Positions 4,437 to 8,436 of a stretch of DNA of 64,000 nucleotides are shown here, piece after piece; position 1 is the stretch's first letter; each line of letters opens with the position of its first letter. The notes beneath the pieces are model-generated. The model did not search any database and was not told where the DNA came from. It saw only the letters and a program-made list of their open reading frames with translations. Origin of the DNA: Alphaproteobacteria bacterium. GTDB lineage: Bacteria > Pseudomonadota > Alphaproteobacteria > SHVP01. A program made the translations under genes and the position numbers. The DNA lies in NCBI GenBank assembly GCA_016869765.1, contig VGES01000005.1, positions 1 to 64,000 of the forward strand, given 5' to 3'.

Positions 4437-5411
4437 GTGGACGTCTTCCGCCGCTTCGACGCTTTGCCGGCTGGGCGCGACGGCGGGGTTTTTGCCATCG
4501 GCAACTTCGACGGCCTTCACCGTGGCCACCGCGCGGTGATCAGCGAGGCCGCACGTGTCGCCCGAGAGCGAAACGCCCCCCTCGGCGTGATTACGTTCGA
4601 GCCACACCCGCGAAGTTATTTTGCGCCTCAGGATGCACCGTTTCGGTTGACCCCGCTCGACCGCAAAATCGAGCTTCTCAAGCGCTGGCAGGTCGACCTG
4701 ATGGCGGCGATCCCATTCGACACGACCATGGCCGCTACGACCGCTCACGATTTCGTCGCACGAAATTTGGTCGGGGAGCTCAAGGTCGCCCATCTCGTCG
4801 TCGGTCACGATTTCGCGTTCGGCCACAAGCGTCAGGGCAATGTCCGCTATCTCGAGGAACAAGGCACCTGGCTTGGGTTCGGTGTTTCTGTCGTCTCTGC
4901 CCAGCTCGCCGAGAGCGGTGCCCTCTATTCGTCGCGTTCCGTACGCGAACTGTTGGGCAGCGGCCGTCCACGCGACGCGGCGGAAGTGCTGGGGCGTTGG
5001 TGGAGCGTCCGTGGCACGGTTCAGCGTGGCGATCAGCGTGGGCGGGACCTCGGGTTTCCGACGGCCAACATCCGGCTCGGCGAATACCTGCAGCCCTCGC
5101 TCGGCATCTACGCGGTGCGCGCTGCGACCGGTGAAGGGGCGGCCCGTCGTTGGCACGACGGCGCTGCGAGCCTCGGGGTGCGTCCGACGTTCGATGGCAA
5201 GGGCGTACTGCTCGAGGTGCACCTGCTCGACTTCAAAGCCGATCTCTATGGCCAGACGCTCGATGTCGCCTTCGCCGAATATTTGCGACCCGAAGAGCGT
5301 TTTCCCAATGTCGACAGCCTGGTGCGCCAGATGCAGGCCGACTGCCTACGGAGCCGTGGCATTCTGGCCGACCATCGTTATGCCGTGGACCGGTTCGGCG
5401 AGGCTCCGTAG
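4437..5411 (+). CDS. ribF: Bifunctional riboflavin kinase / FAD synthetase
   Basis: A 324-residue RibF, which phosphorylates riboflavin to FMN and adenylylates FMN to FAD in the cytoplasm. The N-terminal nucleotidyltransferase domain has GNFDGLHRGH near residue 22 and the late motif YSSRSVRELL. The C-terminal riboflavin kinase domain has RGRDLGFPTANI and SLGVRPTFDG. The start is GTG 4437, five bases after the MaoC stop; VFAIGNFDG comes too soon after it for a later start. It is followed by ileS and lspA, the classical proteobacterial ribF-ileS-lspA order, but a 154-bp gap with a probable terminator lies between ribF and ileS. Confidence 0.96.
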   Translation: MDVFRRFDALPAGRDGGVFAIGNFDGLHRGHRAVISEAARVARERNAPLGVITFEPHPRSYFAPQDAPFRLTPLDRKIELLKRWQVDLMAAIPFDTTMAATTAHDFVARNLVGELKVAHLVVGHDFAFGHKRQGNVRYLEEQGTWLGFGVSVVSAQLAESGALYSSRSVRELLGSGRPRDAAEVLGRWWSVRGTVQRGDQRGRDLGFPTANIRLGEYLQPSLGIYAVRAATGEGAARRWHDGAASLGVRPTFDGKGVLLEVHLLDFKADLYGQTLDVAFAEYLRPEERFPNVDSLVRQMQADCLRSRGILADHRYAVDRFGEAP

Positions 5412-5457
5412 GGCCTCCCTCGACAGGACCTCAGCGCTCCTGTTACAAGACCCGACC

Positions 5458-5514
5458 ATGTTGCGGACAGCTTCGATCATTGGCGGGCAAATTGGTTGCC
5501 CGGTCCTCGCGTAG
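5458..5514 (+). CDS. Putative Ile-containing leader peptide upstream of ileS
   Basis: An 18-codon open frame reading MLRTASIIGGQIGCPVLA, with an adjacent Ile-Ile pair (ATC ATT, 5476-5481) and a third Ile (ATT, 5491-5493). Its stop codon lies inside the 3' arm of a strong terminator hairpin. This arrangement resembles leader peptides of amino-acid attenuators, and the gene downstream is isoleucyl-tRNA synthetase. Against it: no good Shine-Dalgarno precedes ATG 5458 (upstream is ACAAGACCCGACC), and three Ile in 18 codons can arise by chance. Treat it as a hypothesis. Confidence 0.35.
   Translation: MLRTASIIGGQIGCPVLA
5484..5502 (+). promoter_or_regulatory. Candidate anti-terminator hairpin in the ileS leader
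   Basis: CGGGCAA (5484-5490) and TTGCCCG (5496-5502) form a perfect 7-bp stem with a 5-base loop. Its 3' arm shares bases 5498-5502 with the 5' arm of the terminator that follows, so the two structures cannot form together. A further perfect 6-bp stem, ACAGGA (5423-5428) with TCCTGT (5438-5443), lies upstream. Mutually exclusive stems before a T-rich tract are the architecture of an attenuator. Confidence 0.45.
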
Positions 5515-5529
5515 GGCCGGGGCTTCTTT
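5498..5529 (+). terminator. Probable intrinsic terminator/attenuator between ribF and ileS
   Basis: The arms at 5498-5507 and 5513-5523 pair over 10 base pairs, including one T-G pair and one bulged G at 5519, around the 5-base loop CGCGT. TTCTTT follows immediately and the next 17 bases remain T-rich. GC-rich stem plus T-tract fits a Rho-independent terminator. Because ribF-ileS-lspA is normally one transcription unit, a terminator here either separates ribF from ileS or conditionally controls ileS. Confidence 0.6.
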
Positions 5530-5565
5530 GCATTCCGTTTTGCTTTGATCTGAAGGTCCGAGACC

Positions 5566-8436
5566 ATGGCTGACCGCCCTGAATCGCCGACGCCCGCTAC
5601 GGGCGTCGACCGCAAGTCCACCGTATTCCTGCCCCAGACGTCCTTTCCGATGAAGGCCGGCCTGCCGCAACGCGAGCCCGAAACGCTCGCGCAGTGGGAG
5701 CGGCAGGGGCTCTATCGGCAATTGCGCGAGCAATCGAAGGGCCGCGAGAAGTTCATTCTTCACGACGGCCCGCCCTACGCCAACGGCAATCTCCACATTG
5801 GCCACGCGCTCAACAAGATCCTCAAGGACGTGATCAATCGCTCGCAGCAGATGATGGGGCGGGATGCCAACTACGTTCCCGGTTGGGACTGTCATGGCCT
5901 GCCGATCGAATGGCAGATCGAACAGAACTATCGCCAGGCGGGCAAGAACAAGGATGCCGTCCCGATCGTGCAGTTTCGCCGCGAGTGTCGGGAGTTCGCG
6001 AGCCATTGGATCGGTGTCCAGCGCGAGGAGTTCAAACGTCTCGGAGTCATCGGTGATTGGGACCATCCCTACTCGACGATGGACTTCCAGGCCGAAGCAC
6101 AGATCGCGCGCGAGATATGCAAGTTCGTGATGAATGGCGGCCTGTACAAGGGCGCGAAACCGGTGATGTGGTCGGTCGTCGAGCGTACGGCATTGGCCGA
6201 GGCCGAGGTCGAATACCACGACCGTACGTCGACCACGGTGATGGCGTGTTTCCCGGTAAAGGCAGCCGGCCGGGCTCCGAGCCTGCTCGGCACGACGGTC
6301 GTCATCTGGACGACGACACCATGGACGCTACCGGGCAACCGTGCGATCGCCTACGGCAAGGGCATCGACTACGTCATCGCGACCGTCGGGGCCGTCGTCG
6401 AGGGCAGCTTCGTGAAACCCGGCGATCGCCTGGTCATCGCCAAACGACTCGTCGACAGCGTGCGTGACGCGGCCAAGATCACCGCTTGGGAACGGCTGTT
6501 GCCGATGGTCGGTGCCGACCTGGCCGGCGTCGTGTGCCGCCACCCGTTCCATGGAGCGGGTTACGACTTCGATGTTCCCCTCTATCCCGGCGACTTCGTC
6601 GATACCGAACAAGGCACCGGGTTCGTCCACATTGCACCCGGCCATGGCGAGGACGACTTCGTGTTGGGCCAGCGTCACGGCGTGCCAGTCCCGGAGACCG
6701 TCGGCGGCGACGGCGCCTTTTTGCCGCACGTGCCGTTATTTTCGGGCAAGCGCGTCATGCTGCCCTCAGGCAAGGATGGCGACGCGAATTCAGCCGTGAT
6801 CGAGGCCCTGCGGGAACGGGGTCGTTTGGTGGCGCTCGGGAAACTCGTTCACTCCTATCCGCACTCGTGGCGTTCCAAGGCCCCCGTAATCTTCCGCAAT
6901 ACGCCGCAGTGGTTCATCTCGATGACGGCCAACGACCTTCGGGCCAAGGCGCTGAAGGCGATCGAGCAGGTTCGTTGGATTCCGCCGCAGGGCCGCAGCC
7001 GAATCTATTCGATGGTCGAGAATCGCCCCGAGTGGGTGATCTCGCGTCAGCGTGCCTGGGGCGTTCCGATCACCGTTTTCGTGGATCGCAAGACCGGTCA
7101 GCCGCTGCGCGATGAGCGCGTCAATGAACGCATTGTCTCGGCCTTTGTGGCCGAGGGGGCCGATGCGTGGTTCGCCGACGACGGCAAACGGTTTCTCGGC
7201 ACCGACTACGCGATCGCGGACTACGAGAAGGTCAACGACATCGTCGATGTCTGGTTCGACTCGGGATCGACCCATGCGTTCGTACTCGAGCAGCGGCCCG
7301 ACCTGCAATGGCCGGCGTCGCTATATCTCGAGGGCTCGGACCAGCATCGCGGCTGGTTTCATTCCTCATTGCTCGAATCTTGCGGCACCCGCGGCGTCGC
7401 GCCCTACGAAGCCGTGCTGACGCACGGTTTCGTCATGGACGGCGAGGGCCGCAAGATGTCCAAGTCGCTCGGCAACGTCGTCAGTCCTCAGGACGTGGTC
7501 AAGAAACACGGGGCCGACATTCTTCGACTCTGGGTCGTGAGTTCGGATTATTCGGAGGACCTGCGGATCGGTGAGGAGATCCTCCAGCGTCAGGTCGATG
7601 CCTACCGCAAGCTGAGAAACACCTTGCGCTATATCCTGGGCAATCTCGCCGACTTCTCCGAACGCGAGCGGCTGCCGGTCGAAGCGATGCCGGAACTCGA
7701 GCGTTGGGTGCTGCACCGTTTGGCGGAACTCGATCAGCTCGTCCGGCGGTCTTGCGACGACTTCGATTTCCACGCGTTGTTCGTCACCCTGTACAACTTC
7801 TGCACCAACGACCTGTCGGCCTTCTACTTCGACGTTCGCAAGGACTCGCTCTATTGCGATCGCCCGGACGCGATCCGCCGGCGGGCGGCGCGGACCGTCC
7901 TCGACGAGTTGTTCCGTTGCCTGACCGCCTGGCTCGCGCCAATTCTGTGCTTTACGGCGGAGGAGGTTTGGCAGTCCCGCCACGGTGCTGGAGCGGCCAG
8001 CGTTCACTTGCAGCTGTTTCCGGACATCCCCAAGGCTTGGCGCAGCCAGGCACTGGCCGATCGCTGGGCCGCGGTCCGAACGCTGCGCCGGGTCGTGACC
8101 GGGGCCCTCGAGATCGAGCGGCGCGACAAGCGCATCGGTGCCAGCCTCCAGGCCCATCCGACGGTCTACGCGGACGCCGCAACATTGACGGCTTGTGTGG
8201 GTATCGACCTTGCCGAAGTCTCTATCACGTCGGCGATCACGGTCGTCGAAGGGGTGCCACCAACCGGAGCCTTCACGCTCGATGACGTTCCGGGGATCGG
8301 TGTGGTCACGACCCTGGCGGATGGCACCAAATGCCAGCGCTGCTGGCAGGTCTTGCCCGAAGTCGCTGTCCCGGACAGCGGCGGGGTGTGCCGCCGCTGC
8401 GCCGATGCCGTTGCACACCATGGGCACGCGCGTTGA
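5566..8436 (+). CDS. ileS: Isoleucyl-tRNA synthetase
   Basis: A 956-residue class Ia synthetase charging tRNA-Ile. The HIGH signature is in PPYANGNLHIGHALNK (about residues 67-83) and the KMSKS loop in GRKMSKSLGNVVSPQ (about 628-642). Between them lies the CP1 editing domain with TTTPWTLPGN and GTGFVHIAPGHGEDD. The C-terminus carries a zinc-binding CQRCWQ...CRRC pair at about residues 924-944, typical of bacterial IleS. Length is normal. ATG 5566 is preceded by GAAGGTCCGAG. The TGA overlaps the TTG start of lspA, so translation is coupled. Its leader contains a candidate attenuator. Confidence 0.98.
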   Translation: MADRPESPTPATGVDRKSTVFLPQTSFPMKAGLPQREPETLAQWERQGLYRQLREQSKGREKFILHDGPPYANGNLHIGHALNKILKDVINRSQQMMGRDANYVPGWDCHGLPIEWQIEQNYRQAGKNKDAVPIVQFRRECREFASHWIGVQREEFKRLGVIGDWDHPYSTMDFQAEAQIAREICKFVMNGGLYKGAKPVMWSVVERTALAEAEVEYHDRTSTTVMACFPVKAAGRAPSLLGTTVVIWTTTPWTLPGNRAIAYGKGIDYVIATVGAVVEGSFVKPGDRLVIAKRLVDSVRDAAKITAWERLLPMVGADLAGVVCRHPFHGAGYDFDVPLYPGDFVDTEQGTGFVHIAPGHGEDDFVLGQRHGVPVPETVGGDGAFLPHVPLFSGKRVMLPSGKDGDANSAVIEALRERGRLVALGKLVHSYPHSWRSKAPVIFRNTPQWFISMTANDLRAKALKAIEQVRWIPPQGRSRIYSMVENRPEWVISRQRAWGVPITVFVDRKTGQPLRDERVNERIVSAFVAEGADAWFADDGKRFLGTDYAIADYEKVNDIVDVWFDSGSTHAFVLEQRPDLQWPASLYLEGSDQHRGWFHSSLLESCGTRGVAPYEAVLTHGFVMDGEGRKMSKSLGNVVSPQDVVKKHGADILRLWVVSSDYSEDLRIGEEILQRQVDAYRKLRNTLRYILGNLADFSERERLPVEAMPELERWVLHRLAELDQLVRRSCDDFDFHALFVTLYNFCTNDLSAFYFDVRKDSLYCDRPDAIRRRAARTVLDELFRCLTAWLAPILCFTAEEVWQSRHGAGAASVHLQLFPDIPKAWRSQALADRWAAVRTLRRVVTGALEIERRDKRIGASLQAHPTVYADAATLTACVGIDLAEVSITSAITVVEGVPPTGAFTLDDVPGIGVVTTLADGTKCQRCWQVLPEVAVPDSGGVCRRCADAVAHHGHAR

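Follow-up and report, generated by a model that had tools for sequence, protein, structure and literature searches.

A candidate leader-peptide sensor of charged tRNA-Ile upstream of ileS, and its relatives with exchangeable sensor codons across Alphaproteobacteria

In the 64,000-nucleotide stretch of an alphaproteobacterial contig analyzed here (the window), ileS lies behind ribF, which raises the question of whether the gap between the two genes holds a control element dedicated to ileS and, if so, what that element senses. The original prediction, made from this DNA alone, was an attenuator in which an Ile-containing leader peptide and two mutually exclusive stems adjust ileS to the supply of charged tRNA-Ile. 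At a probability of roughly 0.78, we favor the reading that a leader peptide gauges charged tRNA-Ile and thereby sets ileS expression, as one member of a class-wide family whose sensor codon is exchangeable. Comparison with relatives thus supports the Ile-dependent leader, but not the switching stem, the tandem Ile codons as sensor or the U-tract that had been proposed with it.

Direct reading of the window confirms an 18-codon leader ORF (ATG TTG CGG ACA GCT TCG ATC ATT GGC GGG CAA ATT GGT TGC CCG GTC CTC GCG TAG) whose Ile codons stand at 5476, 5479 and 5491, that is, the tandem ATC ATT and the later ATT on which the prediction was built. Also present are the perfect 7-bp stem (CGGGCAA/TTGCCCG) and the terminator-like stem, P2, whose 5′ arm overlaps it. 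P2, described earlier as 10 bp long, is a hairpin of 9 contiguous bp (−17.4 kcal/mol) that gains a tenth pair, 5498/5523, only if a G is bulged out. The leader stop codon (TAG, 5512–5514) falls at the junction of the P2 loop and 3′ arm, and the sequence after the hairpin, CTTCTTTGCATTCCGTTTTG, contains T residues but not the clean U-run that a T-rich tract might suggest. A promoter-like site (TCGACA/TACAAG) common to family members had been missed; its −10 box ends 8 nt ahead of the leader ATG.

Table 1. Features of the ribF–ileS region, in window coordinates.
Feature	Position	Strand	Basis
ribF, bifunctional riboflavin kinase/FAD synthetase, upstream gene	4437..5411	+	ORF; NCBIfam PRK05627/TIGR00083 above cut-off
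ileS, 956 aa, gene inferred to be regulated	5566..8436	+	ORF; Pfam tRNA-synt_1, Anticodon_1
Promoter-like site of the leader (−35 TCGACA, 5420–5425; −10 TACAAG, 5444–5449)	5420..5449	+	Sequence; CTCGACA-N-TACAA common to family members; profile and distance statistics over relatives
Leader ORF, 18 codons, peptide MLRTASIIGGQIGCPVLA, then stop	5458..5514	+	Sequence; frame kept in relatives
Putative sensor codon ATT, the third Ile codon (slot is ATT/CTT/GTT in relatives)	5491..5493	+	Sequence comparison
Hairpin P2 (arms 5499–5507/5513–5521, loop 5508–5512)	5499..5521	+	Folding; terminator-like scan; covariation over 105 relatives
Possible lower stem P1 (GCAAA 5487–5491/TTTGC 5527–5531)	5487..5531	+	Predicted with P2 at −22.0 kcal/mol
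T-containing tract ATTCCGTTTTGC 3′ of P1, possible termination region	5532..5543	+	Sequence; U-tract not general in relatives
5′ stem of the original prediction (5484–5490/5496–5502)	5484..5502	+	Present in window; not conserved; not considered functional

A single sequence would not decide the matter. The fold evidence from the window by itself is modest (z = −1.58 for 5470–5540 and −0.80 for the whole ribF–ileS gap), and the hairpin, which has the most pairs among 11 terminator-like matches in 12 kb, comes from a scan in which shuffles expect 7.7 matches. Rfam gave no match at gathering score in the window, none up to E = 10 in 5380–5600, and nothing relevant at relaxed thresholds. Because a DNA similarity search of the gap within the order found the gap itself alone, kinship is visible only through structure and frame.

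We collected ileS-upstream regions from family members and other alphaproteobacteria. Except in the AT-rich family members G006 and G007, where no element was found, the regions from the family shared one arrangement: the promoter-like CTCGACA-N-TACAA, an ATG just 3′ of it, a short ORF with R-I-x-x-P-x-(L)-stop at its end (the final L not in all), and a GC hairpin that encloses the stop codon in its loop and starts its 5′ arm a few nucleotides beyond the Ile codon. With a covariance model built from 16 members, all of them ileS leaders, we detected the element in 102 of the 385 alphaproteobacterial genomes sampled; such counts, here and below, refer to genomes and elements rather than to independent evolutionary events. 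In a sample of 398 drawn from the whole phylum, each of the matches listed fell in Alphaproteobacteria. The element also precedes ileS where the upstream gene is not ribF (L005, L056, L060). An ileS locus of Azospirillum brasilense (L036) is among those that carry it. Three genomes of one genus (G041, G266 and G169) carry two Ile elements ~180–200 nt apart on the same strand (L120, L121, L126). A second weak match in the window organism's own genome (C2:133278) was rejected, because it is not such a leader and stands before no Ile gene.

The leader ORF and the hairpin each carry their own signature of conservation. When we asked of 111 elements whether a frame was open from an ATG within 22 codons upstream of the Ile codon and closed by a stop 5–12 codons downstream of it, the predicted frame qualified in 83, compared with 0 and 2 for the other frames; leaders of this stop class are mostly 15–23 codons long. 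Across 105 aligned matches, P2 showed 93 double-change cells against 20.3 ± 6.6 in shuffled alignments, with 90.8% of positions paired, and the signal fell sharply once the partner was slid. The comparison of gaps from related genomes that the original prediction had proposed as its check therefore recovers the short ORF, the Ile codon and compensatory changes in the hairpin, but not the 5′ stem. Judged by these comparisons, the element is a real, class-wide leader-peptide element, and conservation makes the window copy appear far more than a product of chance.

The promoter-like site is a regular part of this arrangement. In the upstream profile of relatives, TTGAC stands near −36 and the −10 box is rich in A. 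The best promoter-like site ends 4–9 nt (mostly 6–9 nt) ahead of the leader start codon in 76 of 107 elements, and the element brings this site with it. SD-like cores are rare (4 of 105 elements). Because the ATG sits where transcription should begin, the missing ribosome binding site that the original prediction had pointed out is to be expected: the leader mRNA is probably leaderless, with a predicted start at or beside the ATG. Leaderless mRNAs are numerous in Caulobacter (PMC4117421), and the Sinorhizobium trpL leader is itself leaderless (PMC10117765).

Most elements share a CGA-ATT-A core, with CGA before the slot in 110 of 111 and A after it in 106 of 111, features that are typical and not required. 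In the window copy two core bases are changed (CAA-ATT-G), and both models had it among their training sequences, so that the case for its membership is made by features in common with family relatives: position, promoter-like site, frame, stop in the loop and hairpin. On these grounds we file it as a divergent member of the CGA-NTT cassette. More constraint falls on CGA, TT and the A that follows than the codon accounts for. This constraint, the deviation of the window copy, the single sensor codon and the rarity of a U-tract behind P2 count against the preferred reading. A scan open to any CGN-ATY returned CGA-ATT in 27 of 28 matches, the remaining one being chance-like, and a search of 190 genomes with the generic pattern GCGANNNA gave ATT, CTT and GTT alone among element-like matches. 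For comparison, ATT makes up 11.8% of Ile codons and CGA 4.4% of Arg codons in the downstream genes.

The slot codon fits the pathway of the next gene. ATT precedes genes for IleS (66), ACT-like (49), NTF2-like (4), IlvA (2) and AAA_33 (2) proteins and one unassigned gene, and never LeuA; CTT precedes LeuA in 20 cases, ACT-like genes in 3 and unassigned genes in 4 (pattern matches without leader anatomy), and never IleS; GTT precedes ACT-like genes in 2 cases and unassigned genes in 3. The covariance model supplied most of the ATT set, and a pattern search for slot variants supplied the CTT and GTT elements; neither approach used the downstream gene, except that the 16 training sequences were ileS leaders. 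The 20 CTT elements span about nine families (counted by handle), and the identity of LeuA, 2-isopropylmalate synthase, was confirmed. Several genomes hold both kinds; G194, for example, has ATT before ileS and CTT before leuA. In G001–G003 a doubled element, CGA-CTT followed by CGA-GTT, precedes a small ACT-like gene. The Leu and Val slots there lie ~48 nt apart in one leader (L151/L285 in G001, L152/L286 in G002, L234 in G003), and ~1.3 kb further downstream an Ile element stands before another ACT-like gene. This match between codon and pathway is, of the comparative results, what argues most strongly for sensing of tRNA charging. The working Ile codon in the window is predicted to be the third (5491–5493), the one conserved in relatives.

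The ACT-like gene is the second most frequent gene after the element, and these loci often continue with a DUF4743 Nudix gene, ilvA or cimA, or in some cases with ileS. For the ACT-like protein, Pfam and NCBIfam gave matches below threshold only (Pfam ACT_AHAS_ss, 0.031), and the best PDB match, the AHAS small subunit (E 0.13), is likewise below threshold. These ACT-like proteins form a family of ~100 aa with the sequence ACFSVxAxADPGxMPRVLELFAKRGLVP (for example L113:1141-1455:- and L155:2203-2547:-). At four loci (L196, L205, L214, L216) the leader ends R-I-(S/T)-x-P-A-stop and precedes an NTF2-like, DUF6841-related gene with no known link to isoleucine, and at two others (L150, L204) the element precedes an AAA_33 P-loop kinase-like gene.

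How might a single Ile codon, fewer than attenuators usually have, control the hairpin behind it? Transcription would begin at or beside the leader ATG, and a ribosome would then translate the 18 codons. When tRNA-Ile is charged, the ribosome would pass the ATT at 5491, reach the stop in the loop and depart, whereupon P2, perhaps lengthened by P1, could fold and ileS expression would fall, most likely through premature transcription termination. When charged tRNA-Ile is scarce, the ribosome would stall with the ATT at 5491 in its A site, covering roughly 5476–5503 and with it half of the P2 5′ arm as well as P1, so that the hairpin could not form and ileS would be expressed. A ribosome in that position reaches roughly to 5503, and masking its footprint leaves a residual structure of −6.8 kcal/mol in place of the −17.4 kcal/mol hairpin, whereas with a ribosome on the tandem Ile codons the hairpin persists (−18.9 kcal/mol). 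Because a ribosome at 5491 masks P2 and a stall on the tandem codons does not, the third Ile codon gives a starvation-on logic. The caveat attached to the original prediction, that a stall on the tandem codons would favor the terminator, falls away if the stall is at the conserved third codon, where the ribosome would mask the P2 arm directly; no antiterminator would be required. CGA and NTT codons are both read through wobble pairing, and two such codons in succession may make the site unusually sensitive to shortage.

P1, which in the window contains the first base of the sensor codon, was rejected as a general feature: over relatives its mean score is 11.8 compared with 10.2 for shuffles, with 14% of elements at p<0.05. 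It is clearer in an extended subtype whose leader ORF continues past the hairpin, and is a plausible lower stem, on the predicted fold, in the window and some members.

The explanation closest to the original prediction is a classical attenuator, with the 7-bp stem as antiterminator and the tandem ATC ATT as sensor. Both stems are indeed present and overlapping in the window, but the 5′ stem shrinks to 3–5 bp in family members and is not above shuffles (105 elements), pairing of the P2 arm with upstream sequence scores 0.64 compared with 0.62 when that sequence is shuffled, and a stall on the tandem codons leaves the terminator whole, all of which makes this explanation very improbable. Slightly less improbable, though still unlikely, is that the nascent peptide R-I-x-x-P-x-L arrests the ribosome in response to a small-molecule effector and not to tRNA charging. 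R, I and P hardly vary among the leader peptides, as arrest would predict, but the nucleotides behind them belong to the invariant part of the codon core and hairpin arm, and the residue in the slot varies with the pathway (I, L or V), as expected of codon sensing, although an amino acid could still be the effector. That the hairpin is a plain ribF terminator or a chance fold, leaving ileS unregulated, would suit its place between ribF and ileS and the T residues behind it; given that the hairpin keeps its position with respect to the conserved ORF and the promoter-like site, and that the element occurs without ribF and is also found upstream of leuA, ilvA and the ACT-like gene, we find this scarcely credible.

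A more serious alternative, which we hold only tentatively, keeps the codon sensor and changes its output: the hairpin would not be an intrinsic terminator but would act through Rho where the transcript is left untranslated, or would alter how well the downstream mRNA is translated or how stable it is. A U-tract lies within 12 nt of P2 in only 18 of 111 elements, and we rejected it as a general family feature; because it is not conserved, intrinsic termination is just one possible output. Against this alternative, the window and several members do carry T-rich sequence 3′ of the hairpin, T content in relatives climbs at +9 to +13, and TTTTC is enriched after the hairpin (18 occurrences, compared with 4–5 in control stretches). 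In its favor, the leader ORF runs through the hairpin in 21 members and usually ends just past the ACT-like ATG, which lies 67–79 nt 3′ of the Ile codon in another frame, the run-on leader stopping 8–32 nt beyond it. In this run-on subtype the leader ribosome would itself cross the start site of the next gene, which suggests control through ribosome traffic over that site. Run-on leaders were recorded at L123, L135, L147, L154, L158, L161, L164, L170, L171, L173, L177 and L178, and further at L184, L186, L187, L190 and L201.

Returning to the sensor of charged tRNA-Ile as the preferred reading, we suggest, at somewhat less than even odds, a broader generalization: a modular cassette in which CGA plus one exchangeable NTT codon (ATT for Ile, CTT for Leu, GTT for Val) in a leaderless ORF holds a ribosome over a single hairpin, and which controls branched-chain genes and ileS class-wide without an antiterminator or a run of codons, in many members without an intrinsic terminator, and with a new output step. 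These observations suggest that leader-peptide control in Alphaproteobacteria may be a reusable cassette in which one codon chooses the amino acid, much as in a T-box. Such a cassette would allow regulators to be annotated in roughly one in four of the genomes sampled from the class, tie the uncharacterised family of small ACT-like proteins to branched-chain amino-acid supply, and account for ileS having its own leader behind ribF in the window organism; it also raises the question of why CGA-NTT, and no synonym of it, is used.

Ribosome-mediated transcription attenuators include those of E. coli trp, his, pheST and ilv and the Caulobacter ilv leader. Like them, the element pairs a terminator-like hairpin with a short leader ORF that overlaps it and contains the codon of the amino acid under control, and a response to charged tRNA is expected. 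Unlike them, it has one sensor codon, no conserved antiterminator stem of the trp type (among 105 elements), a probable leaderless start and often no U-tract, and a single cassette with a changed codon stands before different genes. In the broad sense, then, the window locus has the apparent makings of a ribosome-mediated attenuator, namely a leader ORF with the appropriate codon and a hairpin overlapping the end of that ORF, so that the position of the ribosome would decide whether it folds. As a candidate cassette it has an NTT matching its gene, a hairpin near the slot, a stop in or beside the loop and a promoter-like site before the ATG, while lacking the typical CGA before and A after the slot (CAA and G instead). 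T-boxes, which regulate ileS in other phyla, bind tRNA directly and carry one exchangeable specifier codon per member; the element resembles them in that a single swappable codon sets the amino acid for each member, and differs in that its codon lies inside a translated ORF and that no T-box covariance model matches.

Among alphaproteobacterial leaders, uORFC-8-2 before cysS in Rhodobacterales, for which ribosome-mediated attenuation has been proposed (PMC8632094), is likewise a leader ORF ahead of an aminoacyl-tRNA synthetase gene, but by its published description it is a different motif, with two tandem Cys codons, two stems and an intrinsic terminator, and is confined to one order and one gene. 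Caulobacter crescentus has a translated ileS leader CDS, CCNA_03934, which served there as a negative control only (PMC4117421); compared by position and not by sequence, it too is a small translated CDS before ileS, in keeping with the preferred reading. The Sinorhizobium trpL/peTrpL system (PMC10117765) shares a leaderless leader ORF in an alphaproteobacterial attenuator, and differs in being a Trp leader with its own sequence and gene, for which no CGA-NTT core is reported. In the open-licence literature we found no description of the CGA-NTT cassette or its codon exchange, although an earlier description elsewhere is possible. Set beside these systems, the element departs from known attenuators in ways that, from comparative evidence, are best read as a variant of ribosome-mediated attenuation.
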